Positions 19,965-48,545 of a stretch of DNA of 64,000 bases are shown piece by piece (within the stretch, counting starts at the first letter, position 1; each line of letters begins with the position of its first letter). The notes under the pieces were generated by a model. It was not told the origin of the DNA. It was given only the letters and a program-made list of their open reading frames with translations, and searched no databases. A program made the translations under genes and the position numbers. Origin of the DNA: Gemmatimonas sp. (lineage in GTDB: Bacteria > Gemmatimonadota > Gemmatimonadetes > Gemmatimonadales > Gemmatimonadaceae). The stretch is from assembly GCA_011390805.1 (NCBI GenBank), contig JAABRT010000001.1, positions 62,001 to 126,000 on the forward strand, written 5' to 3'.

Positions 19965-20987
19965 GTGCACACATCTCACGCAGTTCCGGCCAAGGCGCCA
20001 CCCACGCAATCCACGCGACTTCGCGTACCGCGCGCACCGCACGCGTTTGCTTGTACCGCTTCGTTGCTTGCTGCTGTGCTCGTTACCGCATGCGGTAGCA
20101 GCATACGCCCCAGCAGCACACCAACGCCCTCAGCCGCAGACTCTGCTGCTCTGGCCGCCGAACGGTCTACCGGAGCGCTGAACCGGCGTGCGCTGGGTGT
20201 TCCGCCATTCGCGGTGCGCGGCACCGACAGCAAACTCACCCCGCTGAGCTACGCGCTGGCGGATCTTATTACAACCGATCTCGCGCGCAGTGGCCAGCTC
20301 ACGCTTGTTGAGCGTACCCGGCTTGGTGATGTGCTGCGTGAACTCGACCTGGCCGCCTCGGGACGTGTGGACTCTGCTACGGCCCCGCGCGTTGGTCGGC
20401 TGGTAAGTGCGCGCCGCCTGGTGATCGGTTCGCTCGATGAGCTGCCGAACGACGGCGGTCTGCGCATGGGTGTGCGGCTGGCCGATGTGGAGCGCGGCAC
20501 GGTGGAACAGGCCATCGATGCCACGGCACCGCTCGTCGATATCCTCGACGCACAGAAAGCGCTGGTGTTTCGCATTCTCACCTCGTTGGGTGTGACGCTC
20601 ACACCCGCTGAACGTGCGGCCATCGAACAACGTCCCACCAATAACGTCACGGCACTGCTGGCCTACGGAGAGGGCATTAAAGCCGAGTACGCGGGCGACT
20701 ACCGCACCGCCGCCTCGCAGTACCGGCGCGCGCAACGTCTTGATGCGTCGTTCGTAAGCGCGGGTGTGCGGGCGCGCGAAGTGCGCGCGCGCTCAGAAAC
20801 CGGTACCACCGCGCCCATTGCCATACCCGGACTGCGATCGCGTGAAGCCGCGGTTGGCAACGCGCTCGACGGCGTGAATCGACCGTTGAGTCAGATCACC
20901 ACCGTGCTGCGCAACACCGGCGGCGCCGCCGACCCCGGATTTCCCACCACCGCTGCGATCGTGCTGATCACGGTAACCCGCCCATGA
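19965..20987 (+). CDS. CsgG/FlgO-like lipoprotein
   Basis: A 340-residue protein with a long N-region and a lipobox (LLAAVLVTAC), so probably lipid-anchored to the outer membrane facing the periplasm. The middle resembles the CsgG-type domain: GVPPFAVRG, ADLITTDLARSGQLTLVERTRL, then LAASGRVDSATAPRVGRLVSAR. A helical, possibly TPR-like, tail follows (YRTAASQYRRAQRLDASFVS). It uses GTG at 19965. The last bases overlap the start of the next gene (ATGA at 20984), so it is coupled to the barrel protein downstream. It shares its core with the minus-strand protein at 24747-25466. Confidence 0.72.
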   Translation: MHTSHAVPAKAPPTQSTRLRVPRAPHAFACTASLLAAVLVTACGSSIRPSSTPTPSAADSAALAAERSTGALNRRALGVPPFAVRGTDSKLTPLSYALADLITTDLARSGQLTLVERTRLGDVLRELDLAASGRVDSATAPRVGRLVSARRLVIGSLDELPNDGGLRMGVRLADVERGTVEQAIDATAPLVDILDAQKALVFRILTSLGVTLTPAERAAIEQRPTNNVTALLAYGEGIKAEYAGDYRTAASQYRRAQRLDASFVSAGVRAREVRARSETGTTAPIAIPGLRSREAAVGNALDGVNRPLSQITTVLRNTGGAADPGFPTTAAIVLITVTRP

Positions 20988-22201
20988 GCGCGCGCCGATT
21001 TCTCATTGCCGGCGCCGCTGCGCTGTGCATCGCGGGCACCGCTTCGGCCCAGGATCGCCTGGTTGGTTTACGCGCACTCAGCGGCGGTGGCGTGTTTGAA
21101 CGCATTGAGTTCGCCGACGGCGGACTGCTGCAGTCACCGCTGGTAGGACAGGATTCACTGCGCATCACCTCAGCCACGCAGATTTCGTTTCCCGTAGCCG
21201 CCTCCATGCCGCTCGGACGCAGTTGGACGGTAGACATCACCACCGTCTATTCGTCCGGCGAGGTAGGGTTCACGTCGGGCAACTCCAACACAGCCGGCAC
21301 CGCGACCCTTTCGGGGCTGAGTGACGTCCGCGTACGCACAACCGGACGGTTTTTCAACGACGGACTGATTTTCACCGCCGGACTGAACGCACCCACCGGC
21401 AAAACCGAGCTGAGTGCGCTCGAACTCACCGCGGTGCGCGTGCTCTCGGCACCGGCACTCGCACTTGGTGCGTCACCAATCGGTGCGGGACCCAGTGGAA
21501 CCGTCGGGTTGCTTTCGGCGCGCTCCCTCGGACCGTGGGCTGTCGCGGCCGGCGTCGCCTATGAACATCGGGGCAGCTATCAGCCGGTGGCCGCACTCGT
21601 TGCCGGTGCCCCCAGCGCCGACTTTCAGCCCGGCGGCGTGATTCGCGCCTCACTTGGCCTCGATCGACTCATCGGGAACAACCGGTTGTCGATCACAGCG
21701 GCCGGCGATTTTTTCCAGACTGATGAACTGCGGGCGCCATCAGGCTCCGCCCCCATCGCACAGGTGCGACTGGGCCCCGTGTTCTCCGCCGACGCGCAAC
21801 TGCAGCTCGGCGTGCCGCGGGTACGCGACTTTGTACTGTGGACGGCGGCGCGCTATCGCTCCAACTTCTCGCGCGACGACATCACCGTCGACAACTCCAG
21901 CGGTACGTATTTTGACGGCGGCCTGCGCACCACCGTGCCTGTCGCCCGCTCTACTGATGTGATTTTCGCGGTGGACGGACGCTTTCACAGCGGTCTGGAA
22001 ATCGACGAAGGACTCCCGACGTCAGGTGTGACCAGCGGTTCGGCAACGCTTGGATTTTCGCAGCGCATCGGCATGCTTGCCTTCCAGCCGTTTGCCCGCG
22101 GCACGCTGGGATCGGTGAACGCCAGAGGAAACGCGCGAGACAGCCAGCAGGCAAACTTCACTGGCGTGTCTCTTGGTCTCGTCATCATTTCCCGTTTCTG
22201 A
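20984..22201 (+). CDS. Outer-membrane beta-barrel protein, unknown substrate
   Basis: A 405-residue protein with a cleavable signal peptide (MSARRFLIAGAAALCIAG, then ASAQ) and a chain of alternating, amphipathic strands. It ends in Phe (IISRF), as outer-membrane barrels do. No plug or enzymatic motif is seen. Its start overlaps the stop of the CsgG-like lipoprotein and it is followed after 11 bp by the InlB-repeat lipoprotein, so the three are one operon and may act together at the outer membrane. Confidence 0.7.
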   Translation: MSARRFLIAGAAALCIAGTASAQDRLVGLRALSGGGVFERIEFADGGLLQSPLVGQDSLRITSATQISFPVAASMPLGRSWTVDITTVYSSGEVGFTSGNSNTAGTATLSGLSDVRVRTTGRFFNDGLIFTAGLNAPTGKTELSALELTAVRVLSAPALALGASPIGAGPSGTVGLLSARSLGPWAVAAGVAYEHRGSYQPVAALVAGAPSADFQPGGVIRASLGLDRLIGNNRLSITAAGDFFQTDELRAPSGSAPIAQVRLGPVFSADAQLQLGVPRVRDFVLWTAARYRSNFSRDDITVDNSSGTYFDGGLRTTVPVARSTDVIFAVDGRFHSGLEIDEGLPTSGVTSGSATLGFSQRIGMLAFQPFARGTLGSVNARGNARDSQQANFTGVSLGLVIISRF

Positions 22202-22212
22202 GGCCGCCCGAC

Positions 22213-24681
22213 ATGCGTACAACTCATTCTGGTTTGCGGCGTCTGGCCGCGGCCGCTTTGCTTTTCACGCTCGCCGCCTGCGGATCCATTGGCGATATGC
22301 TGTCGCCGGGCAAGCCGGCTGGCGATGCGTTGCCGGCCAAACTGGCCCTCAACGCCATCATTCCCCGCTTTCAGCAGTCGAGCTTCTCGCGACTTGAACT
22401 GCGGGTCATCACCTCATACCTGCGCGAAGATCAATCGGAACGTCCACTCGGTACACAAACCATTGCCTTGACCGGTGCCACCACACAAACGGTTCCGGTG
22501 AGTCTCGAGCTCGGTCCCTGCCTCACCGACCCGGATCGATCGGGGGCCGCCACCAACCCTGATGCCTGTTTTGTTCGACTGGAGCTCATTTTGCTGGGCG
22601 ACGGGCGTGAACTCGACAGAGTCCAGTTGCTCGGCCTGCGTCTGACACCGGGCGCGACCACTGCGGTGCCGCAAACAGTGGAGCTGTTCGAGGTGGCGTC
22701 GGTGGAGATCAGTGTGGCGGGGCAATCCGCTCCGATTCCCGCTACCGGCGTATCCGTTGAAGCCGGCACCACCGTCGCGCTGGCGGCCCGGGCACTCGAC
22801 GCCACCAATCAGCCGGTTGCCGGCCGAGACGTCACCTGGAGCTCAAGCAACAGTGCCGTCGCGTCGGTGTCCGCAACCGGCGTGGTCACCGCCGCGGCGG
22901 CCGGTCAGGCAACCATTTCGGCCTCCATCGGCGGACGCACCACATCGGTGAACTTTACGGTCCGACCGCCCGTGCGCCGTCTCTCGGTAACCGCAACGCC
23001 TGGAAGCGGTGCAGGACGCATTGTGTCGGTTCCTGCGGGGATCGATTGCGCCATCAACGCCGGTGTCGCCACCGGTATTTGTGCGTTCGATTTCCAGAAC
23101 GGCGCCAGCGTCACGCTCACGGCGAGCTTCTCGCCACTCACCGCACGCTTTGCCGGCTGGACCGGCGCCTGCCTTTCCAACGGACAGGGCAGCAGCTGCC
23201 AGCTGGTCATGGACCAACCGCGTGCGACAGGCGCGTCCTTCACTTCGCTCACGCCGGTCACGGTGCAGGGTTCAGGTAGCGGCGTGATCATCAACAGCAG
23301 CCCGGTGGAGGGCATTGCCTGCACGTTGGGAAGTCCGCCGTCGGGCGCGTGCACCTTTGGCTTCGTCTCAGGGCAAACGATTGTGCTCACCGCGCAGGAA
23401 ATCACACTCGCCCGCGTCGATGGTTGGGTTGGCTGTGATGCCGTCACGCGCACAAGCTGTACGCTGTCGCTCGCCGGCGTGTCACGCAGCGTATCCGTGC
23501 TGGTGGTCCCGCCGCGTGTTCTGCTGGGTGCACCGCGCGGTAACGGCAACGGAATCGTGACCTCGCCCGCCGCCGGCAGCTCTGCTGACGCACTCGGCTT
23601 GTCATGTGCGCAACCGGCGTCCGATGGCGAAGGACGCTGCGAATCATCCTACCCGTTCCCGAGCAGCGTGACCGTGACCGCCACGCCGGCTTCCGGCAGT
23701 CGCTTTGTGCGATGGGAGGGCGGCGGCTGCGAAAACCGCAGCACGCCGCAGTGCGTGGTCAACCTGACCAACCGTGACGTCGTGCAAACGGAGCTGTTTG
23801 CCGTGTTTGAAGTGGCGGCTCCGCTTACCATTGATCTCTCGGGCACCGGCGGCGGTAACGTGTTTGTGAACGGCGCACCGGCGTGCGCACTGGGCTTCGT
23901 GCAGCCAACCAACCGGTGCGTGCTGAACTTTGATGCCGGTGCCACCGTGACGCTTACAGCATCACCGTTGCTTAGTGGGCAGTTCCTGGGCTTTGGCGGC
24001 GCCTGTCCCACCGGCAGCAGCAGCTGTACGCTCACGCTCACCGGACCGACCACGGTCACCGGCGCTTTTGCTGCGCAATCACCCACGGTTGACGTAACCA
24101 TTGCGGTGGCCGGTGCGGGCAGCGGCGCAGGTTACGTGGTAAGCGGCAACGAAGACATCGCCTGCGACATTATCGGTTCAACGCTGCTGGGTCCGCGCTG
24201 CAGCACCACGATCGATCGCGGTACGAGCATCACATTGTCAGCGTTTGACGACATTGCGATTGTCACCAGCGGATTGAACGTGTTCCGTCGTTGGGGTGCC
24301 AACTCGCCGTGTCCGCTGAGCCCGGAGCCTGAGTGCACGTTTACGCCAACGGAAAACAACACCGTCGTAGAAGTCGAGTTTGTACCAGCCGTCAGCATCG
24401 CACTGTCCCTGTTTGGCGATGCGGGCGGCCAGATTTCGCTGAGCGTGCCTGGCTACCGCTCCATCCCGGGGTGCGCCTTCAACCCCAACCAGAGCAGCGT
24501 GGAATGTGAGTTCTTTGTGCCGCTCGGCAGCAACGTCACCCTCACGGCGATTCCGGAAAGCGGCGCGATAGCCAGCTTCTCATCGGTCGCGTTCTGTTCG
24601 GTGAGCGGAAACAGTTGCACCTTCATCGCGCAGAACGACGAGTCAGGAGCGATCGTCTTCCTTGGACAGGACGACGATTAA
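22213..24681 (+). CDS. Large lipoprotein with Big2 and six divergent InlB B-repeat-like units
   Basis: An 822-residue lipoprotein (LLFTLAACGS lipobox). Residues ~162-254 form a bacterial Ig-like (Big2) domain with DVTWSSSNSAVASVSATG. From about 256, 349, 435, 537, 625 and 726 start six units with the pattern GxGxI(x)n-C-(x)n-C-F-(x)n-VTLTA-(x)n-F-GW-(x)n-C-(x)n-C, like divergent InlB B-repeats. Most units contain paired Cys residues, so disulfides are likely. Presumably it is exposed in the periplasm or on the cell surface as an adhesin or stalk. It is third in the operon after the CsgG-like lipoprotein and the barrel. Confidence 0.75.
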   Translation: MRTTHSGLRRLAAAALLFTLAACGSIGDMLSPGKPAGDALPAKLALNAIIPRFQQSSFSRLELRVITSYLREDQSERPLGTQTIALTGATTQTVPVSLELGPCLTDPDRSGAATNPDACFVRLELILLGDGRELDRVQLLGLRLTPGATTAVPQTVELFEVASVEISVAGQSAPIPATGVSVEAGTTVALAARALDATNQPVAGRDVTWSSSNSAVASVSATGVVTAAAAGQATISASIGGRTTSVNFTVRPPVRRLSVTATPGSGAGRIVSVPAGIDCAINAGVATGICAFDFQNGASVTLTASFSPLTARFAGWTGACLSNGQGSSCQLVMDQPRATGASFTSLTPVTVQGSGSGVIINSSPVEGIACTLGSPPSGACTFGFVSGQTIVLTAQEITLARVDGWVGCDAVTRTSCTLSLAGVSRSVSVLVVPPRVLLGAPRGNGNGIVTSPAAGSSADALGLSCAQPASDGEGRCESSYPFPSSVTVTATPASGSRFVRWEGGGCENRSTPQCVVNLTNRDVVQTELFAVFEVAAPLTIDLSGTGGGNVFVNGAPACALGFVQPTNRCVLNFDAGATVTLTASPLLSGQFLGFGGACPTGSSSCTLTLTGPTTVTGAFAAQSPTVDVTIAVAGAGSGAGYVVSGNEDIACDIIGSTLLGPRCSTTIDRGTSITLSAFDDIAIVTSGLNVFRRWGANSPCPLSPEPECTFTPTENNTVVEVEFVPAVSIALSLFGDAGGQISLSVPGYRSIPGCAFNPNQSSVECEFFVPLGSNVTLTAIPESGAIASFSSVAFCSVSGNSCTFIAQNDESGAIVFLGQDDD

Positions 24682-24732
24682 CCCGGGCGCTAAAGTCGAC
24701 GTGATTTGATCCTGGCGTTATTTGCGAGTCGC

Positions 24733-24763
24733 GGACGCCGGAGCAGTTACTGCTCCGGCGTTC
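24733..24763. terminator. Near-perfect inverted repeat between convergent genes
   Basis: Arms acgccggagcag (24735-24746) and ctgctccggcgt (24750-24761) are exact complements around a 3-base loop. One G-T and one G-C pair extend the stem to 14 bp. The loop TTA is the complement of the TAA stop of the minus-strand CsgG-like gene, so the stem includes its last codons. No T-run follows on either strand, so it may be a Rho-assisted or bidirectional terminator or an mRNA-protecting hairpin. Confidence 0.55.
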
Positions 24764-25466
24764 CGCGCTCCAGGGTGGCCAACAACACCTTGGCACGCTC
24801 GAAATCCGGATTGGCATCAATCGCCTGCTTATACAGCGCCACCGCTTCCGGCACGTTTTTGCGATCCTGCTCTTCAATCGCGCGACTCAGGAGCAGCATG
24901 GCGCGGAACTGATTGGGGTTCTTTCCGCCGGCATCAGAAAACTTCGACGCGTTGGCCGGACGCGGGGGAAGCTTGAGCCCCGAGTTGATCTTGGTGCCCA
25001 GCTGGCTGATAAGCCCGATCAGCTTGTCCGCTTTGCCCTCGATGGTCTCCACATATTCCACTTCAGACGTCTCGGTGTTCACCGCCCGCACGTCAATGCG
25101 CATGTTCTCGCGCGGATCGATAATGAACGTGCCCAGCAGCATGTGGCGCGCGCCCAGAATCTTGCCCACCCGCACCGCTGTTTCCGCATCTACGCGACCT
25201 GATGCCGAAAGGTCCTGCTCCTCGAGCAACTGCTGCAAACGGTCACGCTCGACCACACGAATGGTGGGGTTGCGCGAGAGCTCGGTGATGAGCACCTCGG
25301 CCATGCCTTTGCTCAACGGGGCATAATCAGCGTTGCCCATGAGCGCGCTGTTCGTGAAGTACATGACAGCAACGGTTGGTTTGGCCGCGTCCTGCGCTAC
25401 GGCGGGTGCCGACACAACCACTGTTGCCAGCGCGAATGCAGCCACGATTGAGTTCAACGTCTTCAT
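24747..25466 (-). CDS. Periplasmic CsgG-like protein with C-terminal TPR-like helices
   Basis: A 239-residue protein with a signal peptide (ALATVVVSAPAVAQ) and no lipobox Cys. A CsgG-type domain follows (VAVMYFTNSAL, LITELSRNPTIRVVERDRL, LSASGRVDAETAVRVGKILGARHMLLG). A short helical repeat (KNVPEAVALYKQAIDANPDFERA) resembles a TPR. The ATG at 25466 is preferred because it follows a TGGAG ribosome binding site; longer readings add an unrelated 33-residue tail. It is divergent from the Ser/Thr kinase gene and homologous to the lipoprotein at 19965-20987. Confidence 0.75.
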   Translation of the reverse strand: MKTLNSIVAAFALATVVVSAPAVAQDAAKPTVAVMYFTNSALMGNADYAPLSKGMAEVLITELSRNPTIRVVERDRLQQLLEEQDLSASGRVDAETAVRVGKILGARHMLLGTFIIDPRENMRIDVRAVNTETSEVEYVETIEGKADKLIGLISQLGTKINSGLKLPPRPANASKFSDAGGKNPNQFRAMLLLSRAIEEQDRKNVPEAVALYKQAIDANPDFERAKVLLATLERGTPEQ

Positions 25467-25631
25467 AAACCATTTTCTCCAGTAAGCAGCGGCGACTGCA
25501 ACGGCAGTCTTCATGTCACATCCCTCGGTCTGCATAAAGCGACAAGCAAGCCGAAAGAACGTCACTCAGATTCGCACACGGTGCAATAGTACGCCGAGTT
25601 GCGGTCTGTGCCTGCTCCCTACCCCTGCGCC

Positions 25632-27431
25632 ATGCCCAAGGTCTGTCCCGTCTGCGAAGCATCGTTTCCCGATGCCACCATGTTCTGCCCCACCGACGGC
25701 TCCACCTTGCGGGCGGCCGAGGTCGATGGTGATCTCATCGGCTCGGTAATTGCCGATCGCTACCTGGTTACCGATCTGCTGGGTGAAGGCGGGATGGGCA
25801 AGGTGTATCTGGCCCGACACGTTCGCCTGCCGCAGCAGGCCGCAATCAAGGTGTTGCGTCCGGCCATGCTGCGCGACCCGGCAGCCGTGGCCCGCTTTAA
25901 GCGTGAAGCGGCCAACGCCAGTCGCATTGAGCATGAGCGCATCGCGCGCGTTTTTGACTTCGGGGAATCGTCCGACGGCACCGTCTATCTGGCCATGGAG
26001 TTCGTGCCCGGGCGCACCCTCAAGCGCATCATCACCGCAGACGGTGCGCTGACTCCGGAACGCGCCTCTACCATCACACGGCAGATCAGCGAAGCGCTTG
26101 ATGCCGCCCACCGGCTCGGCATCGTGCATCGCGATCTCAAGCCTGACAATGTCATGGTGATTGAGGACGCGGAAGTCGGAGACCGCTGCAAGGTGGTGGA
26201 TTTCGGGATCGCCAAAGCTGTGGGTGGCGACGCGGGAGAAGCGGGCTTAACAAAAACCGGCTTCATCGTGGGCACGCCCGAGTTCATGAGCCCGGAGCAG
26301 TTGCTCGGAGAAAACGTAGATCATCGAAGTGATGTGTACGCGCTCGCGCTGCTGGCTTTTCAATGCCTCACCGGGGCACTGCCGTTTGACTCCACCACGC
26401 CTGAGCGCGCGATGACGGCCCGGCTGGTTGAGAAGCCCAGAACGCTTGACGCGGTTCACCCGCGTACCGCGTGGCCCGCGTCAGTGCAGGCAGTGTTTGA
26501 TCGAGGGCTGGCCAAAAGCGCCGCCGATCGGTACCCAAGCGCTGGTGCGTTCGCGAAGGATCTGGCCTCGGCGATCGCGTCGTGGAACGCGGGCCCGGCC
26601 AGCGCGCCGTCAGCGCCGCCGGCCGAGGCAAAGCCGCTGAGCTCACCCGTCGCCTCATCAGCGATTGCGGGTGGCGCGCCTTATTCATCGCCCGCAACTT
26701 CCGGAAAAACCGAAGAAAATAGCACCAGCAACAAGACTTCAAAAAGCCAGTTACCGCTCATCGGTGGCGGTATAGCGGCAATTGTGGGGATAGCGGCGCT
26801 GGTCTTTGTGCTTACGCGTCCTGACGCGACAAATCAAAACGACACAGTCTCACAGCCCGCCGAAATGCCCTCCGGGAGCGAAGCGATCGCACCTCAAGTG
26901 ATTTCTCAAGGGCAAGACACAGATCAGATTCAAGCACCTGTAGGCGACACACAAGAGCCACAACTGGAACTTAATAAAGACAGAGAGACGGCAAACGCTG
27001 CGGCCGGTTCCGCTTCGGGAAATCAGGCTAACGTTGGCTCGCAACCTCGGACCAGCGGTGCCAGCGCCGACACTCCTCAAGCCGGCAGCAGTTCGTCCAG
27101 CACCGCCTCTACCGCAACCGGCAGCACCGAATCCAACGCCGCCGCCCGGGCCAGAGTCACGCTCGACAGCATCAGGCGGGCCATTGATCCGCTCACCGCC
27201 ACGCCAGCCCAGGCGCGCGAGGGGGTGGCTGCGCTGCGTGTGCTCATGCCTCGCCTGGGATCGGCCGAAGACAGCGCCTGGGCCTTCCTGCGGCAGGCCG
27301 AAGCGCACTTCATCATGAACGATGCACGGTCCGCTTGTGTCGCACTCAAGGCCGCACGACCCCTGCTTCGGACCGCCGGACAGCGGGATATCATGGCGCT
27401 CATGAGCGGCTCCATCAGCGACGATTGCTGA
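25632..27431 (+). CDS. Membrane Ser/Thr protein kinase with N-terminal zinc ribbon
   Basis: A 599-residue protein. Residues 5-23 form a zinc ribbon (CPVCEAS, FCPTDG). The kinase domain has the glycine loop GEGGMGKV (51-58), Lys73 in AIKVL, HRDLKPDN (from 166) and DFG (190-192), and is intact. A Pro/Ala/Ser linker leads to a single membrane helix (about 374-394), a low-complexity segment, and a C-terminal helical TPR-like domain outside. The ATG at 25632 places the ribbon at the N-terminus. It lies next to, and converges with, tssM. That suggests a PpkA-like role in controlling the secretion machine, but no PppA phosphatase or FHA protein is seen in this window. Confidence 0.88.
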   Translation: MPKVCPVCEASFPDATMFCPTDGSTLRAAEVDGDLIGSVIADRYLVTDLLGEGGMGKVYLARHVRLPQQAAIKVLRPAMLRDPAAVARFKREAANASRIEHERIARVFDFGESSDGTVYLAMEFVPGRTLKRIITADGALTPERASTITRQISEALDAAHRLGIVHRDLKPDNVMVIEDAEVGDRCKVVDFGIAKAVGGDAGEAGLTKTGFIVGTPEFMSPEQLLGENVDHRSDVYALALLAFQCLTGALPFDSTTPERAMTARLVEKPRTLDAVHPRTAWPASVQAVFDRGLAKSAADRYPSAGAFAKDLASAIASWNAGPASAPSAPPAEAKPLSSPVASSAIAGGAPYSSPATSGKTEENSTSNKTSKSQLPLIGGGIAAIVGIAALVFVLTRPDATNQNDTVSQPAEMPSGSEAIAPQVISQGQDTDQIQAPVGDTQEPQLELNKDRETANAAAGSASGNQANVGSQPRTSGASADTPQAGSSSSSTASTATGSTESNAAARARVTLDSIRRAIDPLTATPAQAREGVAALRVLMPRLGSAEDSAWAFLRQAEAHFIMNDARSACVALKAARPLLRTAGQRDIMALMSGSISDDC

Positions 27432-27455: not shown

Positions 27456-30400
27456 CTACGGCGCCTTGACCACCGGCGATGGACAGTTGAGCGACTGACC
27501 CAGCCAGCCGCTCTGCATGAGCGGCAAACCGCCGGCAAAACTGTAGCTGACCACCACGGTGCGATCGCCCTCGGTGTAGGTCACCTTCAACTCGCCATTC
27601 GCCCAGCTGCCGTTGCCTTTGGCAATCAGGCGGAACAGCGCCCACTCACCCGACTCGTCGGCGAAGCTCACGCGGCTGGTGCGCCCGAAGCTTCTCGACA
27701 CCTCCACCTCCAGCTGCGCCGTTTGCGGGTTGCCGGCGGCCAGTGGCCACTCCAACACGTTGGCCGGCGTGCGCGTGTCAAACTGCGCCAGCGTATTGCC
27801 ATGCTTGAGCAGCACGCGATCAACTTCGCCGCCCGGTGTTGACTTGGCGTCTACACGGACACGCGGTTCAGTGGCCCCGTTGGGAAACAGCGCGCTCGAA
27901 ATCCGTGCGGCCCGATTAAAGAACTGCAGGAACTCGTCGGTGAGCTGCATGGGTGCCCCCGCACGCTGCACCCACTGCGTGCCGCGCTGTTCAACCAACG
28001 GCGCCAGATGGTCGGCATGCAGAATCCAGAATGCGCCAATATCAGGTGCCAGCACGTTGCTGATCTCTCCCAGCGTGGCTTCGGCGCGCGCGCTGCTGTT
28101 AAACGGATAACGGGACGTGAGCCCGCCCAGCGTCCGGCAGAACTCCACCCCCGCTCGATTCACCGCCGCCGACGGTGGTTCGGCGGCTGCCCCGCCACCA
28201 CCGCCACCGCCGCCGCCAGCCGCGGGCGCCGGAGCTGGTGCGGGTGCCGCTTGTGCCACGCGTACACGAGGTGGGCGTGTGGCCGCCACGGTGCGCAGTA
28301 CACCTTCGGCACCGGAAATCGGCGCCTCGAGCAGCGCCGACACCACCGGGCCGAGCTGAGACGCGGCCGTGTCCACCGCAAACGTCTGCGCGACCTGACG
28401 CGCCGACACCTTGGCGCGCGTAGCCTCGGACATCGCGCCTTGCGCGCTCTGTGCGATGGCCAGTGCACTGGCCGTGTCTACCACGGGCGGCATATTCGCG
28501 ACCTGCTCCAGCGCGCCTTGCAGATTGAGCAAACCGTTCGCGTACGGTTGATTAGGCTCGCTCACCAGCTTGTCCTTCACCGCCGGCGGTGTCACCGCGT
28601 GCACCGGCTGAAAGGCGGCCGTGGTGATGGAGTCCACATCGGTGTTCTGCGCAACGAGCGAGAAGAGACCCAGCAACGGCGACTGTGCACCACCCAGAAT
28701 GCCGAGCTTCTGCGCTGCATCGGCCGTGCTGCCCGGCGGCACGATGGCCGTTGAACGCACAAACTGACGCCACTGGCGGATGTAGTCGCTTGTATAGCGC
28801 GCCTTCAGCTCGTCGATCACACGATCACGATCGTCGGCCAGCGCGGCCGTCGCGTCCCCAACCACCCACTGCTCACCCTGGAAGTAGCGGTCGGCGTTCA
28901 CGAACGCATCCTGCATGAACGTCCATCCGCCACGCGTGAACGCGCCCGCCACTTCCCCCGACGACGCCATCACACCCGCAGAGTTGGGCACTGCTTGCGC
29001 CAAACGGACCGACGGATTGTTCTTTCCCGCCTCGGCCAGCATTGACTGATAAATCGGCTCCGCCCCGGTGAATCGGCCAAGGTAGTTGCGCGATGTGCCA
29101 ACCAGGCGCGCGTCGGCGGCCGTTGGCCATGGATGCTCAACCGCCAACTCCTCGGCAAAATATTCAAACTGCCGGCGCGCCAATGCGGTGACGTCGGCGT
29201 CCACCGTCTCGCCGCGCTGCCAAGAAGCGAGTAACACCGGCGCCAGAAAATCAGACGTACTGCGTTCGTGTTCAGCAGTGGTGATGAGATACGCCTTCAG
29301 CCGGTTGTACACTGTGCCGTAGTCATCGGAGGGACTGGGCGCGCTGGGCAGGGCGCGCAGCGAGTCCACCAAGGGCTGCCAGCTGTCGGTGTAAAGTTGC
29401 TGACGGAAACCCTGCAGCCACACCGGCCGTGCCGCATCGAGCAGCGCCGGTCCGCTCCAGAGTCCCATGCGCATCATGAGCGGTGCACCATCACGCTCGT
29501 AGCCGCGCAACGTGTCCAGCACAGCGCGCAGCGTCTCCAGCCGGCGCAGCGCTTCAGGCGACGGAAACACAATCGTGCCCTGCGGCGCCGTAACCTGTGG
29601 CAAGGCGGCCACGGCGCGCGCGGCGTCTTCGGTGCGCGATGTGAGCGAACGGTTGTTGGCCCACGAAATCGTAAACAGAATCGACGCGACAGCGGCAACG
29701 CCAACCGCAGTGCCCAGCATCGCGCGACGCAGCCGGTGCACACGGACACCTCCGCGCGCGGCCGACGCCGCACCCGTGTCTGCCAGCACCACGTCACTGA
29801 AGAAGCGGTCGAGAAACATCCACTCCGGCACTTTGCGGGTTGGCGCGTTGCTCGACGCAGCGAGTGATTGTGCAGGTTGCTGAACTTTTGCAAACACCGC
29901 CGTGGCGTCGGCTGCCATGGGAGATCGCAACGCCTGTGGTGCCGACGGCGCACTGGCCACATCCCGCACCAGCACCGGTCGCACACCCACGAAGTAGAAG
30001 CCGCGCAGCTGCGGGCTCACTCCCAACTGGGTGGGACGCGTGATTTCCGTGAGAAACTTTGTGGCCGCGACGGCGACTTTGCGGAACTCACGGGGCAACT
30101 CGTACGACGCCAACCGTTTGTCGCTGGCATTCTCACGTCCGAGCAACTCCAGTCGCCGCGTGGCCAATGAACGGGTGATGGCGTCGAACGCCTCGGTAAG
30201 GCGCGGCGTGAGGCGTTCTGCATGAGCACCGGGCGCACCATCGGCATCAAAGGGCAGGCCGGCGCCGAGCGGAGCACGCGTTTCGTCGCGCGTGAACGTT
30301 GAAGCCCACGCCTCGTAATGAGGAATCCGATCGGCTTTGGTGAACAGTACATACACCGGCAACTTGATACCGAACTCACGTGCGGCTTCGGCCAGCCGTT

Positions 30401-31034
30401 GCCTGGTGAGTTGCGCCAGCGTTTCGAGTTGCTCGCCGGCGTTGCCGCTGTAGAACAGATCACAGCTTACACACAGCACAGCGGCGCGCGGCGCGACTTC
30501 GCCGCGTCCCACAGCGGCGGCAACACGCGGTGCACGAAGCGCACGCACGACACGTTGCCAGCGCGTGGCATCGGTAAGCAGTCCCCCACCTGCCTCGGCC
30601 AGAATCGCAGCGCGCACGGCCCACACATTCACTGCGGCAGTTGGTGCGTCGGCGCCGGTAGCTTCACCGGCCAGCAGTTCGGGATCCAATCCACTGCGTG
30701 TGACAACGGTTGTCTTGCAACTGCTGCTGCTACCGAGCAGCAACACCAGAGGCCGTTGATCAAAGGCCCCGCGCGCCAGACGTTTGCGCGCTTCGGCAAT
30801 AGTCTGTACGGCATCATCGCCGCTGGTATCGATGTTTGGATCCGGTGCTTCACGCGGTCGCAGGTACCACCAGAGCATCGCGGCCGCGGCGACGCCCAGC
30901 AGTACCAACCCGATGCGCAGAATCCATTGCTCTGTGGTGCTGAGCGTCAACAGGTTGCCAAGCAGCCATGCGGCTGCAACAAAGAGCAGCAGCACGACGC
31001 CGGCGGCAATCCAACGGGTAGCGGGTTTTTTCAT
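27456..31034 (-). CDS. tssM: TssM/IcmF, type VI secretion inner-membrane protein
   Basis: About 1192 residues. Two N-terminal membrane helices (~8-32 and ~38-58) precede a P-loop-like cytoplasmic domain. A third helix (LGTAVGVAAVASILFTISWA) leads to a long periplasmic region, a Pro/Ala/Gly9 linker and a C-terminal beta domain. The P-loop reads GSSSSCKTT (residues 101-109; bases 30708-30734), with Cys where the last Gly of GxxxxGK[ST] should be. The DTAGR motif of other TssM proteins reads AEAGGG, while TKAD is kept. So nucleotide hydrolysis is doubtful. TssM and TssL form the membrane complex. The ATG at 31034 follows the tssL stop directly; a TTG at 31040 is the alternative. Confidence 0.9.
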   Translation of the reverse strand: MKKPATRWIAAGVVLLLFVAAAWLLGNLLTLSTTEQWILRIGLVLLGVAAAAMLWWYLRPREAPDPNIDTSGDDAVQTIAEARKRLARGAFDQRPLVLLLGSSSSCKTTVVTRSGLDPELLAGEATGADAPTAAVNVWAVRAAILAEAGGGLLTDATRWQRVVRALRAPRVAAAVGRGEVAPRAAVLCVSCDLFYSGNAGEQLETLAQLTRQRLAEAAREFGIKLPVYVLFTKADRIPHYEAWASTFTRDETRAPLGAGLPFDADGAPGAHAERLTPRLTEAFDAITRSLATRRLELLGRENASDKRLASYELPREFRKVAVAATKFLTEITRPTQLGVSPQLRGFYFVGVRPVLVRDVASAPSAPQALRSPMAADATAVFAKVQQPAQSLAASSNAPTRKVPEWMFLDRFFSDVVLADTGAASAARGGVRVHRLRRAMLGTAVGVAAVASILFTISWANNRSLTSRTEDAARAVAALPQVTAPQGTIVFPSPEALRRLETLRAVLDTLRGYERDGAPLMMRMGLWSGPALLDAARPVWLQGFRQQLYTDSWQPLVDSLRALPSAPSPSDDYGTVYNRLKAYLITTAEHERSTSDFLAPVLLASWQRGETVDADVTALARRQFEYFAEELAVEHPWPTAADARLVGTSRNYLGRFTGAEPIYQSMLAEAGKNNPSVRLAQAVPNSAGVMASSGEVAGAFTRGGWTFMQDAFVNADRYFQGEQWVVGDATAALADDRDRVIDELKARYTSDYIRQWRQFVRSTAIVPPGSTADAAQKLGILGGAQSPLLGLFSLVAQNTDVDSITTAAFQPVHAVTPPAVKDKLVSEPNQPYANGLLNLQGALEQVANMPPVVDTASALAIAQSAQGAMSEATRAKVSARQVAQTFAVDTAASQLGPVVSALLEAPISGAEGVLRTVAATRPPRVRVAQAAPAPAPAPAAGGGGGGGGGAAAEPPSAAVNRAGVEFCRTLGGLTSRYPFNSSARAEATLGEISNVLAPDIGAFWILHADHLAPLVEQRGTQWVQRAGAPMQLTDEFLQFFNRAARISSALFPNGATEPRVRVDAKSTPGGEVDRVLLKHGNTLAQFDTRTPANVLEWPLAAGNPQTAQLEVEVSRSFGRTSRVSFADESGEWALFRLIAKGNGSWANGELKVTYTEGDRTVVVSYSFAGGLPLMQSGWLGQSLNCPSPVVKAP

Positions 31035-31041
31035 CGCCAAC

Positions 31042-31740
31042 TCAGCGTGCCTCAGTTACTGCCAACGACCGCACATCGGCGCGATCGCTCTGCAATAACA
31101 TGGTATAGGAGCCCCAGAGAGCCACGGCCAGCACGGCACTGGCAATCGCGGCAACAGTCAATCGGCGGAGCCAGGGATCGCGCTCCACCACGGAATCGTT
31201 GGGCGGACGCCACTCGGGGGCCAGATCACCCGCCGGACCACGCAAACGGTTTATGCGTTCGCTGATGCGTGACGTCAGCGCATGCAACGGTGACTGATCC
31301 CCCGCGCCGTAGCGGCCCTTGAAGCCGAGCAGCAGACACAGTTGATGCACTTCGAGCAGGTCGGCCAGTTGGGCATCGTCGGGACGGCTCAGCAGCTGGT
31401 CCACATGCTGAAAGAACCACTCGCCGCCCATATGCCCACCGTACAGCTCGTCCTGCAATGGCCTGCGGGCCCATTCGGCCAACGCCGGCTGTCCGGTGTT
31501 GAGCGCCGATTCGTCGAGAAACGCAACCACGGCAAACACACCCAGCCGTGCATCCTGTTCGGAGTAGCCGGCCGCTCGCGCTTCCTGTTCGGCGCGCGCG
31601 AGCAGTTGCATCATTTGCGTGCGAAATGCACCGGCGTCGGAAATGGGTTGGCGGTTGGCGCGCAGTCGCACCACGGCGGTGATGGCTTCCTGCAGAATCA
31701 GCGCGAGTCGTCCGGTGGTGGACGTGACGAGTTGCGGCAT
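31042..31740 (-). CDS. tssL: TssL/DotU, type VI secretion inner-membrane protein
   Basis: A 232-residue DotU-family protein: a cytoplasmic helical domain (FAVVAFLDESALNTG, LADLLEVHQLCLLLGFKGRYG) and a single C-terminal membrane helix (VAAIASAVLAVALWGSYTML). No peptidoglycan-binding (OmpA-like) extension is present, and only ~20 residues follow the helix. Its stop lies next to the start of tssM, as expected for the membrane-complex pair. It probably shares a transcript with tssK1 upstream. Confidence 0.92.
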   Translation of the reverse strand: MPQLVTSTTGRLALILQEAITAVVRLRANRQPISDAGAFRTQMMQLLARAEQEARAAGYSEQDARLGVFAVVAFLDESALNTGQPALAEWARRPLQDELYGGHMGGEWFFQHVDQLLSRPDDAQLADLLEVHQLCLLLGFKGRYGAGDQSPLHALTSRISERINRLRGPAGDLAPEWRPPNDSVVERDPWLRRLTVAAIASAVLAVALWGSYTMLLQSDRADVRSLAVTEAR

Positions 31741-31793: not shown

Positions 31794-33203
31794 CTATTCG
31801 GGCACCATCACTGCAACGTGCAGTTCAATGTCAGGAAGTGCAGCGGGCACGTACACGCCAATTTCCTTTGTGTCGCGCAGCGCTTTGGCGCAGGGGCCGT
31901 CGAGCGTGAGTTCGAAATACGCAAAATCAGGGCGCGGTGCGATAGCCGGAGGCGGCGAGGGCACGTGATCAAGCGCCAACCCGTGAAACGCCCGCTTCAC
32001 CAGCTCAAGCACAAACTTTGTGGCACACACTTTGGTGAGCTGCGGCACCAGCGACACCGTTTGCGACATGCCAAGTGAGGTACGCACCGCCAGAAACCAG
32101 CGCGCCGACGGCTCGTAACAGCGCGCATCGCTGACGGGCGCACCGTAGAGCACATCGGCCAGCTGCGGCAATGGTGTCACCACCGCGCGTACGGCAATCA
32201 CAACATCGAGTTGCTCTCGCAGAAAGCGCTCAAGACGGTCGAAGCATTCCTGCGGTGCGTCATGATCATAGCTTGGCAGATCACGCGCGTGCGTGGTAAG
32301 CGAGAAGGTGCACAGCGCTCCGGCCAGTCGCAGGATTTCCAGCCACAGCTGTTCCGGATGCGCATCCTGACTGCGCAGCATATGACGCAACGGTGCTTCA
32401 GCCGACCGGACAGCGTGCAGCAGCCATCGTGTGGCCAACTCGTTACCGAGGTAGGCCTGTGCACCGCCGCTGCCACCGCTGTTTTGCGCGGGTGCGAGCG
32501 ATTCAGCGAGCGCTTGCCCCTTCGCATCGAGCATGCCCACAAGGCGGTGTGTGAACTCGAGTAACCGCGTGCTGGCACCAATGCGGACGCTGGGCGGAAT
32601 AAATCGCGGATCGAGCACGTATGCGCCCGCCCCGTCACGACGCACGCGCGCAATGGGCAGCGTGATTTCATCGCCCGTCAGCTCTTCGTCAAGCAACAAG
32701 CGGCACTGGCGCATGGCGAAGGTCACGGAAACCGGATCCTGCCCCGTTGTTTCATCGGTCACCGACCGTTCGTCGCGCACAAAACGGTGCCGTTCGCGCG
32801 GCGCCGGCGTGTCGAGCGCACCAATGGGCGCCTCACTCCACACGTTGGCTGCGCCATGCTGCCAGGTTGGCAATGCGAGATGAACCACGTGCGCATCGCG
32901 CGTGGGCGAAAATCGATCGGCCAGTGGCGTTGGACTGGGCACACGGTCACCGTCAGGGATGTCAAACGGCGTACCGTCCGGCCAGATGCCCCGCGCGTGC
33001 AGCACGGACAGCGTGCCGTTGCGCAAGGCATCGGTATCGAGTTCACAGGACGCCAGTCCATACGGAAAGGCGTGCAATACGTCGATTGAAGACGCCGCGG
33101 TTGCCTCGAGGTGCCGACGGTGCAGCTGAAAATGCTGCGGAGCGAGGTGCATACCCTCTTCCCACACCACGCGGGCTACCGTTGAGGGAATACGACGACT
33201 CAT
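31794..33203 (-). CDS. tssK: TssK, type VI baseplate protein (copy 1)
   Basis: A 469-residue TssK/VasE protein. It opens with VVWEEGMHLAPQHFQ, matching the family N-terminus, and continues with the shell and head domains (ELTGDEITLPIARVRRDG, TRLLEFTHRLVGM). TssK links the baseplate wedges to the TssL/TssM membrane complex. The ATG at 33203 is chosen because it begins just before the conserved N-terminus; a longer reading to 33614 runs into the promoter region of the divergent gene. It is transcribed with tssL and tssM. A second full tssK lies at 35239-36585. Confidence 0.9.
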   Translation of the reverse strand: MSRRIPSTVARVVWEEGMHLAPQHFQLHRRHLEATAASSIDVLHAFPYGLASCELDTDALRNGTLSVLHARGIWPDGTPFDIPDGDRVPSPTPLADRFSPTRDAHVVHLALPTWQHGAANVWSEAPIGALDTPAPRERHRFVRDERSVTDETTGQDPVSVTFAMRQCRLLLDEELTGDEITLPIARVRRDGAGAYVLDPRFIPPSVRIGASTRLLEFTHRLVGMLDAKGQALAESLAPAQNSGGSGGAQAYLGNELATRWLLHAVRSAEAPLRHMLRSQDAHPEQLWLEILRLAGALCTFSLTTHARDLPSYDHDAPQECFDRLERFLREQLDVVIAVRAVVTPLPQLADVLYGAPVSDARCYEPSARWFLAVRTSLGMSQTVSLVPQLTKVCATKFVLELVKRAFHGLALDHVPSPPPAIAPRPDFAYFELTLDGPCAKALRDTKEIGVYVPAALPDIELHVAVMVPE

Positions 33204-33437
33204 GAAGCGTCCGCAATCAGACCGCGCGTCGGCGCGATGGGCCCGCACAGGTTTGTCAATTGAGGAATCTGCAGTAGGGAGTGCACGATCGAAGGGCAGA
33301 ATCGGGACATTGCGTGAGCCCGGGCATTGCCTGCACTTCACACGTGATGAACAATAGACGAGTATGCTTGAGGATGCGCGCCAGCCCACCATTCGGGAAG
33401 GGCTACCATGCGCTTTCTGTTCTAGACTCCCCAATCT

Positions 33438-35180
33438 ATGAGCGACGACTTCCATAACCGCTATCGTTTGTTGAAGTGCATTGCACTCGAAGATCAGGTG
33501 CGGTCGCACAACGCGCAGGAAGTCGCGACAGGGCGCGTGGTCATGGTGCATCTGCTGGACGACGCCGGGCCGAGCGAGATCAGCGCGTTGCGATCCCAAC
33601 TCGATCGCTTGCATCCGAGCGACAAGTCGCGCGTGCTCGAACTGGCGGTCCTCACATCCGGCTTTGCGGTGGTGACCGACTTTCTGCCGGGCTTCAGTTC
33701 ACTGCCGGGCTGGCTGGCCACGCGCGGCGTCTCCGCGGTTGCAGGAGGCGGAAGCGCCGCACCCGCACCGGGCGGCGCAGCCGCGAATGCTCCACCATCC
33801 GCCAGCGGGGCGGTTGCTCCCAGCCCGGCCAGTAGGCAGGCGCCTCCGGTGAGCGCCGATGATGTGACCGCCGAGGTGCCTTCCATGGCGCCACCGGGCA
33901 ATGCCTTCAATGCGGCGGCTCCCGCTCCGGCTCCAGCAGCTCAGCCAGGCGAGTTCACGAAGCTGTTTGCGGCACCCGCAGCACCCGCAGCACCCGCAGC
34001 GCCCGCAGCGCCCGCGGCGGCGGCGTCAGGTACACCAGCGTCTCCATCCGCGCCGGCGGCGGCTTCTCCGGCGGCTTCTCCGCCTGCTTCACCAGCGCCA
34101 CCAGCTGCGCCATCGCAGCCGGGCGAGTTCACAAAAATGTTCGCGGTACCGGCGGCGGCGCCGGTCCAGCCAACTGCTCCATCACCCCAGGCGCCGCCCG
34201 CGACGCCACCGGCCGCACCGCCGGTGGCCAAACCCGCCATGCCCGCGCCATCAGCGCAGCCTCCCAAAGCGACCCCGGCTGCGCCACCGATGCAGTCGGA
34301 GTATTCGGCGATGTTCAAGCCGCTGGCGGTGCCGCCGCCGCCCGATTTCACGCCTGCGGCAGGCACTGGCGTGCCAGCAGCGTCCAGTGCACCGGCCAAA
34401 CCTCCGGCAGCTCCCACACCTCCGGCACCTCCGGCCACGCCCCAGTTTCCCTCGGCGGGCGCTCCGCCCTCCGCGGCGCCCGGCGAGTTCACACAGCTGT
34501 TCAAGCAGGGCGCGATTGGTGGCGGCAGTTCGGCTCCGCCTTCATCTGCTTCGCTGCCGCCCGCAGCCAATCCCTCACAGTCTCCCTTCGGGTTCTCGTC
34601 ACCACCGCAGCCGCCACGTAGCAGTTCGCCACCTGTCAGCAGCGATGATGCTACCGGTGTGATGCGTGCCATGCCCAGCCCTTCGGCTTCACCGATGTCG
34701 ATGCCCGGCCTTGGCTCCACTGCATTACCCCCGGCAAACTCCTCCAACACCGCACCTTCCCCGGCGCCAGAACCCTCCTCGGCGCCGCCTGCAAAGCAGT
34801 CGGGGCTTCCGCCATTGCTACCGCCCCCGATGTTCGGGGCTAATGCTCCGGCACCGAACAAACCCAGCGCTGTTTCTCCGGTCTCGGCGAGCACTCCGGC
34901 CCCCAGCGCCGCCGCCGGACCGTCGGAATACACACAAATGATCAGCCAGGTGACGCCACCGCCGCCGGCTCCGCCCAAGCCGGCTGCTGCTTCCGTCAAG
35001 GATCAGCCACCGGCGCGCAAGATGCCGATTGGGCTGCTCATCGGGCTGAACGTTGTGGTCGTGCTCGCAATCGCGCTGATTTTGTACTTTGTCTTGCGGC
35101 CTGCCGCGCCTGAAGCGGCAACTCCTGAGACCCCCGCTGATACGGTGGCGCCGGCTACTCCCGGCGCATCTGCGGCGTAG
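33438..35180 (+). CDS. Membrane-anchored Pro/Ala-rich protein with kinase-N-lobe-like domain and five [GS]E[FY][ST] motifs
   Basis: A 580-residue protein of no family I can name. Residues ~1-100 read like a protein-kinase N-lobe (YRLLKCIAL, ATGRVVMVHLLDD, SGFAVVTDFLPGF) but lack a glycine loop, HRD and DFG. A Pro/Ala/Ser-rich region follows. It carries five spaced motifs: PGEFTKLF (170-177), PGEFTKMF (228-235), SEYSAMF (287-293), PGEFTQLF (348-355) and PSEYTQMI (495-502). One membrane helix (about 530-552) and a short Ala-rich tail end it, so most of it should face the cytoplasm. It sits between the two tssK genes, divergent from tssK1 and convergent with tssK2. A signalling scaffold for the secretion machine is inferred. 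Confidence 0.6.
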   Translation: MSDDFHNRYRLLKCIALEDQVRSHNAQEVATGRVVMVHLLDDAGPSEISALRSQLDRLHPSDKSRVLELAVLTSGFAVVTDFLPGFSSLPGWLATRGVSAVAGGGSAAPAPGGAAANAPPSASGAVAPSPASRQAPPVSADDVTAEVPSMAPPGNAFNAAAPAPAPAAQPGEFTKLFAAPAAPAAPAAPAAPAAAASGTPASPSAPAAASPAASPPASPAPPAAPSQPGEFTKMFAVPAAAPVQPTAPSPQAPPATPPAAPPVAKPAMPAPSAQPPKATPAAPPMQSEYSAMFKPLAVPPPPDFTPAAGTGVPAASSAPAKPPAAPTPPAPPATPQFPSAGAPPSAAPGEFTQLFKQGAIGGGSSAPPSSASLPPAANPSQSPFGFSSPPQPPRSSSPPVSSDDATGVMRAMPSPSASPMSMPGLGSTALPPANSSNTAPSPAPEPSSAPPAKQSGLPPLLPPPMFGANAPAPNKPSAVSPVSASTPAPSAAAGPSEYTQMISQVTPPPPAPPKPAAASVKDQPPARKMPIGLLIGLNVVVVLAIALILYFVLRPAAPEAATPETPADTVAPATPGASAA

Positions 35181-35238: not shown

Positions 35239-36585
35239 TCATCGCAGAACTATCACAAGTTCAAAACGCGCGTTCACCAGATCAGAGGGCACGTACACGG
35301 CCAGGTTGCGCGCCCGCTCAACAGCTTCCCACGCCGTACCGTGCCGCTGGATGGCAAAGTACTGGTGGTCGAGCTTCACCGGCACCGCGCTCGGCGGCTG
35401 AGGCGTGTGCACCAGCGACAATCCTGACAACGCCTGGCGGATAAGCGTTTCCACCATGTCTGCCGAGCCCACTTTGCAGCCGCTTTGCACTTTGTGCACA
35501 AGCTCGGCCTGCTTGAGCGGCGCGCTGACCGCCAGAAACCATTGCGGCGCCGTCATCCACGCCGCCTGCTCGATGGCCACCGCCGACAGCGTAGGCCGTA
35601 CAGGACGCAACGGCAACGACACGACAATGTCTGGCACCGACGTTTCGAGAAGCGAAAGCAGCCGCGCTTCAAGTGCGCTGAAGCAATCGCCGAGACGCAG
35701 ATGGTCGTAGGCCGGCAGCGTACGCACCGATTGGTCGGGCTGAAACGTGGTTAGCGCTCCGGTGAGTGCGAGCATGGCTTCCCAGAGTGCGGAAGGGTGC
35801 CCGCGTCGCACATCAGCCAGGTGTCGTAACGTGCCTTCGTGACTGTTGAGGGTGTACAGCAGCCAGAAACTGGCGATGTCGGCCACGGAAAAATCGGCCA
35901 GCCCCTGATTCCGCTGGCGTCGTCCGCCGGCCAGTGTCCCGCTTTTGGCGGACACGATTTCAACCAGCCGACGTGCCATGCTGCGCAGGTAGTCACTGGC
36001 CGACAGGTCGAGCAGCGGAGGCACGAAACTGTGATCCACCGTGACCGCGCCCGCGTCGGAGCGGAGTAGCCGGGCCACGGGCATCGTGGCAAAGCCTTCG
36101 GTCGATTCGCCTTCCATCAGCAGGCGCAGATTGCTGCGCGCCACCTGAATGGGTCGTTCCGCCAGTCCGGTGGTTTCATCGCGCTGCAACAGCTCGTCCA
36201 CGCGCCATCGCGTTGGCAGAGCCGTCGCGGTCGGAGCCACGTTCCGACCATCGGGTCGGTACTCGGGCACGCCGAGCAACACATTCATCACGCGCTGGTC
36301 GGGCTGCCAGAGCTGCGTAATGGTGCGCGGCGGCGGAGCCGGATCGCCGCGAGGCGCGTCAAACAGCAGGCCGTCGGGAAAGCGACCGCTGGCGGTGGAG
36401 ACAACCAGCGTCCCACCGGCCAACGCTTCACGATCGAAGGAGAGTTCGGAAAAGCCCCACGGCGAAAACGCCAGCGCACCGAGCTGCAGCGCCAACGCGT
36501 CGTCGTGGTAGCGGTCCTGCGCTTGCAGATGTTGCGGAGCAAGCAGGACGCCTTTGGTCCAGAGCACTGGGGAGAGCTGACGCAT
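35239..36585 (-). CDS. tssK: TssK, type VI baseplate protein (copy 2)
   Basis: A 448-residue second TssK. The N-terminus VLWTKGVLLAPQHLQAQDRY matches the family pattern and the domains run to the end (NLAVYVPSDLVNARFELVIVLR). It is clearly diverged from copy 1 but has no visible frameshift or deletion. The ATG at 36585 is chosen because it directly precedes the conserved N-terminus. It is divergent from tssB with a 281-bp gap, and stands alone on the minus strand. It may replace or combine with copy 1 in the TssK trimer. Confidence 0.88.
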   Translation of the reverse strand: MRQLSPVLWTKGVLLAPQHLQAQDRYHDDALALQLGALAFSPWGFSELSFDREALAGGTLVVSTASGRFPDGLLFDAPRGDPAPPPRTITQLWQPDQRVMNVLLGVPEYRPDGRNVAPTATALPTRWRVDELLQRDETTGLAERPIQVARSNLRLLMEGESTEGFATMPVARLLRSDAGAVTVDHSFVPPLLDLSASDYLRSMARRLVEIVSAKSGTLAGGRRQRNQGLADFSVADIASFWLLYTLNSHEGTLRHLADVRRGHPSALWEAMLALTGALTTFQPDQSVRTLPAYDHLRLGDCFSALEARLLSLLETSVPDIVVSLPLRPVRPTLSAVAIEQAAWMTAPQWFLAVSAPLKQAELVHKVQSGCKVGSADMVETLIRQALSGLSLVHTPQPPSAVPVKLDHQYFAIQRHGTAWEAVERARNLAVYVPSDLVNARFELVIVLR

Positions 36586-36639
36586 GGTGCGTAACGTAGG
36601 CTTGGTGCGCTTGGGCGCCAGTGCATCTTCACGCTTCGC

Positions 36640-36668
36640 TTGACATTTGGCGCGCGACGCGGGACTGT
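36640..36668 (+). promoter_or_regulatory. Candidate promoter of the tssB operon
   Basis: A perfect TTGACA (36640-36645) in the tssK2-tssB gap is followed after 17 bp by GACTGT, which keeps only the second A and last T of TATAAT. A TGTAGG lies two bases further on. The 5' untranslated leader would be about 190 nt. The -35 match is strong and the -10 weak. Confidence 0.3.
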
Positions 36669-36866
36669 AGGCTGTCGTTGGGCGCAGTGAAAGTGCAGAT
36701 GGCAGTACATCATGAGCTCGCACTGCTCCCCGCAGACCGCTTGTACGATCACCCACCGACGATCGCACGAAGGCGTATCGGGACTCCCCGAAGCATCGGG
36801 GACCGGATGCAAACTCGTGCGCTTGTCTTCCTCTCCCCTCCGCTCCGCATCCGCAGGAGAGTTCGC

Positions 36867-38971: not shown

Positions 38972-39080
38972 CCGATAGACCCGCGCGTCAGATGGCGCCG
39001 GTACAACCCTGCCGTTGGCTGGCACCCGCCACCGACATCACAACACGCCGCAATGCGGCACACCCCCTTGGAGGCATCTC

Positions 39081-42816: not shown

Positions 42817-42839
42817 GTCGCGCATGAAGGGAGACCATC

Positions 42840-45703: not shown

Positions 45704-45745
45704 CCACCCTTGATGTTCCTTTTCGCCTAACCAACCGGAGTCCCC

Positions 45746-48508: not shown

Positions 48509-48545
48509 CGGCTGGTTCCCCGATCCCAGGTTTCCGGAGCGCTCC

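Follow-up and report, generated by a model that had tools for sequence, protein, structure and literature searches.

A candidate envelope-kinase module linked to type VI secretion in Gemmatimonas

What could two CsgG-like proteins, an outer-membrane barrel and a repeat lipoprotein do when they are encoded side by side? The question is raised by a locus in a 64,000-nucleotide stretch of Gemmatimonas sp. DNA (contig JAABRT010000001.1, positions 62,001 to 126,000; the window), for which an original prediction proposed that the CsgG-like proteins could form outer-membrane pores and the set could export or display the repeat protein. The four genes, named here A1 (CsgG-like lipoprotein), B1 (barrel), R1 (repeat lipoprotein) and A2 (second CsgG-like protein), adjoin a Ser/Thr kinase gene, K, and a type VI secretion system (T6SS); A, B and R without a number denote the families. 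Our analysis confirms the observation of the gene set, rejects the pore and leaves display of R possible, so that the earlier interpretation is partly supported. The stronger lead is a module of envelope proteins and a kinase that is tied, in this bacterial class, to T6SSs in which no TssJ was detected.

Conservation of the gene block and its linkage to type VI secretion

A1, B1, R1 and A2 were all re-read directly from the sequence at the positions first assigned to them. A1 and B1 share an ATGA overlap, an 11-bp gap separates B1 from R1, and A2 converges on R1. K is divergent from A2 and, according to the window sequence and its annotation, the T6SS starts beyond K; the limits first drawn for the locus hold for the four genes and left the kinase and the T6SS outside. 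The whole A-B-R-A2-K block was found again, in the same order and orientation, on contig C135 of the same genome (3.96 Mb, 170 contigs), with identities of 49, 49, 30, 55 and 42 % for A, B, R, A2 and K, respectively. Near relatives of the genome that carry names, identified with a single protein, are Gemmatimonas MAGs. K with its conserved C-terminal domain adjoins A2 in 18/18 distinct loci.

With B1 as the query, B was detected in 33/60 relatives, and a 34-row B alignment detected it in 116 of the 295 genomes of the class (11 of these matches are weak or partial by our count). Besides the window and the second copy, 78 stretches around B matches were retrieved. TssM (PF06761) is found in 31 of the 295 genomes. 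B is present in 29 of these 31, versus 87 of the 264 others (Fisher p 3e-11, a value that ignores relatedness). In 13 of the 29 genomes, B and TssM are no more than 15 kb apart; many of the others are on fragmented contigs. In the B tree (78 rows), T6SS-linked rows occur in both main lineages, and the T6SS label, which also covers locus L047 of a genome not among the 295, needs 8 changes.

Beyond TssM, a K-type kinase gene comes next in the reading in 24/29 readable places, directly or at some distance, a count that excludes three places ending at TssM and leaves out G157 and G162, whose contigs stop there, and G057. The other five readable places are in G025, with another-looking kinase, and in G003, G192 and G123 (two places), with none; in G019 and G020, 1.6-3 kb separate TssM from the kinase. 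A2 follows the kinase in all 20 of the 24 places with enough contig. An FHA protein is encoded between K and A2 in 11 of these 20, all outside the window's family, and is joined by a PP2C gene in 9 of the 11. A Pfam scan of one locus confirmed the kinase, PP2C, FHA and CsgG-type A2. In that locus, the T6SS-linked FHA protein (L125, 3861-5321) also carries a trypsin-like domain. As judged from sequence, the kinase, PP2C and FHA genes of these relatives are those of the threonine-phosphorylation pathway, and in the window too a Ser/Thr kinase is coded beside TssM.

The window encodes both TssL and TssM of the canonical T6SS membrane complex. TssJ was not matched by PF12790 in any of the 295 genomes or by TIGR03352 in any of the 31 T6SS genomes, with a positive E. 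coli control; a divergent TssJ may escape these models. A lipobox scan of the T6SS cluster (27.4-51.8 kb) with a crude regular expression gave no candidate for a hidden TssJ, and no evidence was obtained for R as TssJ.

The TolB_N/CsgG-type proteins A and A2

The core VER[TD]RL...L[AS]ASGRVD, on which the likeness of the two proteins had been based, is indeed present in both A1 and A2. Both match the Pfam family CsgG (PF03783) over the curated cut-off (A1, 1e-10; A2, 1e-19), with best stretches that span 31-98 (A1) and 4-98 (A2) out of 210, and both also match TolB_N or LpoB. The structure model of A1 (predicted local distance difference test score, pLDDT, 76.9) consists of a compact domain at residues 73-227 followed by tetratricopeptide repeats (TPR) at 226-279. 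TolB (1c5k) ranks first in the fold comparison, with a Z of 14.3 and a root-mean-square deviation (rmsd) of 2.7 over 132 residues. It is followed by FlgT, CadC, GNA1162, LpoB (2mii; Z 10.6 over 111), PelC (5t10_C, Z 10.5, rmsd 3.0 over 111; 9h80_A, Z 9.0) and CsgG (Z 9.3), so that both PelC entries fall below TolB. The model has three strands of 9-10 residues with joins of 4-6 residues, none longer. A and A2 fall in the TolB_N/CsgG/LpoB fold class, and the model of A1 is closest to TolB_N.

That A1 and A2 form CsgG-like pores secreting R, which the Pfam matches over the cut-off would favor, is therefore highly improbable: the matched stretches stop at position 98, the A1 model lacks long transmembrane hairpins, and the Z-score for TolB is well above that for CsgG. 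The domain is nearer to TolB_N, LpoB and PelC. Structure prediction, which had been suggested as a check of CsgG-like ring assembly, gave for the single A1 chain a compact TolB_N-type domain with TPR and no CsgG hairpins. No curli subunit, CsgE or CsgF gene was seen among the annotated neighbors in general scans, none of which was aimed at them.

The earlier choice of 25466 as the A2 start yields the signal peptide MKTLNSIV...AVAQ. Because this signal peptide comes without a lipobox, A2 looks periplasmic and not a lipoprotein. On both A and A2, TPR_Slam matches stay under the curated cut-off.

A also carries a C-terminal tail that is strand-like, has a late proline and follows a low-complexity linker. 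A strict filter for both tail features retained 58/75 A proteins, 2/30 A2 proteins, 1/75 B proteins and 90/1692 other frames, and by eye the tail is still present in 11 of the 14 A proteins that fail the strand part of the filter. A-like proteins in loci without a B match (L087, L090, L093, L120) have different ends, and the tail is therefore tied to B, which does not imply contact. L141, a repeat of L097, whose B lies past its edge, is not counted as such a locus. When modelled by itself, the tail is unstructured.

The barrel family B and its pairing with A

The AlphaFold2 model of B1 (mean pLDDT 89.7) is a barrel with 16 strands by our count, as the outer-membrane barrel call had anticipated. 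Its best fold matches, tied within one Z unit, are CdiB, PelB, PgaA, FhaC, OprB and BcsC (Z 19.2-18.3, rmsd 3.5-4.5 over 263-291 residues). PelB (9h80_M; Z 19.1, rmsd 4.2 over 274) is thus tied with unrelated 16-strand barrels. Ordinary porins rank close behind, and the comparison therefore establishes the fold of B1 and not its function.

B1 and its paralogue match no Pfam family at E <= 0.1, hence no Slam (DUF560) family, and membership of B in Slam was dropped for lack of a family match. Similarly, NCBIfam holds no family for either of the B copies scanned, and a sequence search of the PDB returned no convincing relative (best E 0.9). B is a barrel family with neither a Pfam entry nor PDB sequence relatives, tied to a TolB_N-type partner across one bacterial class. 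If the module has a pore, the candidate is B, not A.

The gene directly upstream of B is A in 72 of the 76 B places scoring over 100 bits, and two of the other four (L106, L107) are cut by contig ends. The original prediction had proposed to look for the genes together in other genomes. They do co-occur: the block is duplicated in this genome, A precedes B in nearly all relatives' places, and R or another lipoprotein with immunoglobulin-type domains often follows B. No natural A-B fusion was noticed among the stop-to-stop frames of the loci. In many of the loci L051-L064, L084, L094 and L114, the A-B pair is found in a housekeeping context next to yebC and a RadA-like gene, and R, A2 and K are missing.

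The repeat lipoprotein R

R1 was rightly described as a repeat lipoprotein, since it has a lipobox, Big_2 and Divergent InlB B-repeat matches in Pfam, and cysteine-paired repeats. The Divergent InlB B-repeat scores 44.2 bits in R1 and 89.9 in its paralogue, both over the cut-off of 23.6. Read from residue positions, the 27 cysteines of R1 comprise one in the lipobox, one base-domain pair (103, 119) and six four-cysteine repeats; the 35 of the paralogue are divided into 1 + 2 + eight four-cysteine repeats.

An iterated profile of the R base domain matched 31 frames, of which 20 come right after B. Although the deeper lineage is out of reach of this profile, B is often followed by a lipoprotein there too. 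Four of these lipoproteins were scanned, and in them Big_2 is located within residues 227-331, accompanied by Fn3 in two and by a carboxypeptidase-regulatory domain in one. A weak propeller match was all that the scan gave for a fifth protein, L088, one that the R profile does reach. Due to the similar place of Big_2 and the differing tips, R looks like a constant base with exchangeable tips (InlB repeats, Fn3, carboxypeptidase-regulatory).

The 72 genes downstream of B were classed by regular expression as 20 base-domain lipoproteins, 14 other lipobox open reading frames, 11 YebC and 27 others, with known errors (L052 and L061 misassigned; L103 and L108 missed). In the radA/yebC setting, R is not adjacent to A-B. 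In G004 (L037/L118) and G003 (L038/L068), contig breaks fall inside R or B, and the flanking pieces suggest the gene order of the window. As A, B and R are co-conserved, a gene set displaying R is plausible.

Gene map and neighboring features

The positions of all features are listed in Table 1. Of the hairpin noted earlier as terminator-like, the perfect 12-bp inverted repeat stands and its role as terminator is unproven: a terminator scan gave no excess (3 sites versus 6.8 in shuffles), and the repeat is not among the sites. Between the two TssK genes is a 580-residue Pro/Ala-rich frame (33438-35180) that is likely to contain a transmembrane segment; a TssK pair was seen again in most of the T6SS loci read in the class. 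A DUF6931 protein (50611-51297), possibly a T6SS accessory, is encoded right after VgrG.

Table 1. Features of the module and of the adjacent T6SS (window positions unless a locus is named)
Feature	Position	Strand	Remarks
A1	19965..20987	+	Lipoprotein; TolB_N/CsgG-type domain (~73-227), TPR (226-279), low-complexity linker, conserved strand-like C-terminal tail
B1	20984..22201	+	Outer-membrane beta-barrel, 16 strands (our count), no Pfam or NCBIfam family
R1	22213..24681	+	Lipoprotein; base domain, Big_2, six four-cysteine InlB-type repeats
Inverted repeat	24735..24761	.	Perfect, 12 bp, between convergent genes; overlaps A2 stop codon; read from sequence
A2	24747..25565	-	Periplasmic TolB_N/CsgG-type domain and TPR; start probably 25466
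K	25599..27431	+	Ser/Thr kinase; N-terminal Cys cluster, likely one transmembrane segment (by eye), conserved helical-looking C-terminal domain
TssM (IcmF)	27456..31040	-	
TssL (DotU)	31042..31740	-	
TssK copy 1	31794..33614	-	True start probably downstream of listed one
TssK copy 2	35239..36909	-	
TssC (VipB)	37366..38859	+	
Hcp	39015..39572	+	
TssA	40409..42301	+	ImpA_N, VasJ
TssE, TssF, TssG, ClpV-type AAA ATPase, VgrG-type spike	42313..50597	+	
Second A-B-R-A2-K block	L005 605-8866		Near aminotransferase-like gene; similar places in L043, L044

Proposed function and alternatives

Gene order, pairing, predicted folds and T6SS linkage are observed; the contacts between the parts, the display of R, the flow of the signal and the target of K are what we infer. 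We propose that A-B-R-A2-K is a five-gene trans-envelope module that presents R, feeds a PpkA-like kinase and is often wired to a T6SS, a reading whose chances we regard as evenly balanced. B would be the barrel in the outer membrane. A, a lipoprotein of the same membrane, would serve B as a dedicated partner on the periplasmic side and is perhaps held to B by the strand-like tail. Together they would seat or thread R, whose variable rod would point outward. Soluble periplasmic A2 would touch the periplasmic part of K, connecting the envelope with the C-terminal domain of the kinase, and K would pass the signal on into the cytoplasm. In genomes that have a T6SS, the module is usually found at the TssM end, where the PpkA-PppA-Fha pathway has its place, and most likely serves as its input, so that a surface or envelope cue would act through K to license T6SS assembly. 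Known inputs of this pathway favor the proposal, being periplasmic or outer-membrane proteins coded beside ppkA or fha. TagQRST feeds PpkA in P. aeruginosa; the periplasmic RtkS of Serratia, whose gene lies downstream of fha and pppA, binds PpkA at its periplasmic part (PMC6082577); and the outer-membrane TssW of Acidovorax, coded between ppkA and fha, interacts with and positions the membrane complex (PMC12607579).

Several observations weigh against the proposal. Blocks occur in genomes without a TssM match (G208, G261), B is present in the 87 genomes without TssM mentioned above, and no T6SS was found within the 16 kb read around the second block. A-B pairs in the radA/yebC setting have no R, A2 or K beside them. 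Conversely, the T6SS genomes G057 and G123 are without B, and roughly 40 kb separate the module from TssM in G003 and G192. K of the window has neither fha nor pppA as a neighbor, the FHA and PP2C matches of the genome being on other contigs. Finally, the C-terminal domain that K has in Gemmatimonas-type blocks went undetected in the kinases of Fha-type loci, so that one and the same place may be occupied by different kinases. In view of these observations, this may be a general surface-signalling unit repeatedly kept by T6SS clusters, or an export unit that has the kinase and the T6SS for neighbors.

In the form of an export unit, A-B would be a PelBC- or Slam-like display machine for R and its relatives, with a lipoprotein/TPR collar and a barrel, and the kinase and T6SS would only share the envelope island. 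The overlapping or close A-B-R genes, the 16-strand exporters (CdiB, PelB, PgaA, BcsC) among the best matches of B, the match of A to PelC and the lipoproteins that follow B away from T6SSs too all agree with it. Porins nonetheless tie with the exporters, 13 A-B pairs labelled beside radA/yebC have no adjacent R, B has no Slam family match, and export by itself leaves A2 and K unexplained; we consider this alternative possible, if doubtful. We consider it quite unlikely that a TssJ-less T6SS uses the module as its structural outer-membrane anchor, with A, A2 or R binding the periplasmic end of TssM. The failure of both TssJ models and the presence of B in nearly all T6SS genomes would fit, as would two precedents, the T6SS of Acinetobacter, which can work without TssJ and has other envelope proteins instead (PMC10564176), and TssW as an anchor coded between ppkA and fha; yet blocks occur without a T6SS, B is absent from G123 with its two TssM places, and a divergent TssJ may have been missed. 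Unlikely, though a little less so, is a combination of anchoring with the proposed signalling module, in which A-B, the exchangeable surface rod R and the adaptor A2 both anchor the membrane complex of a TssJ-less T6SS lineage and sense neighbors, signalling to the TssM-linked kinase. Docking of the A tail in or on barrel B, if true, would be a new kind of lipoprotein-barrel coupling.

Comparison with known systems

Several envelope systems share parts with the module. A and A2 are of the same fold class as the CsgG curli channel, whose channel hairpins are missing from the A1 model. They share the fold class of the TolB N-terminal domain, without the TolB propeller and with added TPR and, in A only, the tail; the same two additions distinguish them from LpoB, also of this fold class. 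Slam surface-lipoprotein exporters combine TPR, a barrel and lipoprotein cargo, as does the module, but B has no Pfam match and TPR_Slam on A and A2 is under the cut-off. In the PelB-PelC exporter (PDB 9h80; PMC12141448), a lipoprotein of the same fold class is likewise found beside a 16-strand barrel with TPR involved; in the module, however, the TPR is in the lipoprotein, not the barrel, and B has no PDB sequence match. No polysaccharide genes are among the annotated neighbors of the module. The T6SS of Acinetobacter resembles the present one in having a membrane complex without TssJ and other envelope proteins, although the proteins differ and anchoring by the module is unproven.

Literature listings on T6SS with Gemmatimonas, Gemmatimonadetes, Gemmatimonadota or CsgG name no such module. 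Among the closest known systems is the threonine-phosphorylation pathway (TagQRST-PpkA-PppA-Fha, with RtkS or TssW), with which the module shares a kinase at the TssM end, PP2C and FHA proteins in relatives, and envelope proteins coded beside them. Unlike in that pathway, two paired TolB_N-TPR proteins, the barrel and the repeat lipoprotein make up the envelope parts, and fha and pppA are not adjacent in the window. A2 and A-B hold places comparable to RtkS/TssW-type inputs, the likeness to TssW, RtkS and TagQ being one of gene place and description, not of compared sequences. The module offers a defined set of genes and hints at the way in which T6SSs beyond the Proteobacteria may be anchored and triggered when no TssJ is seen.

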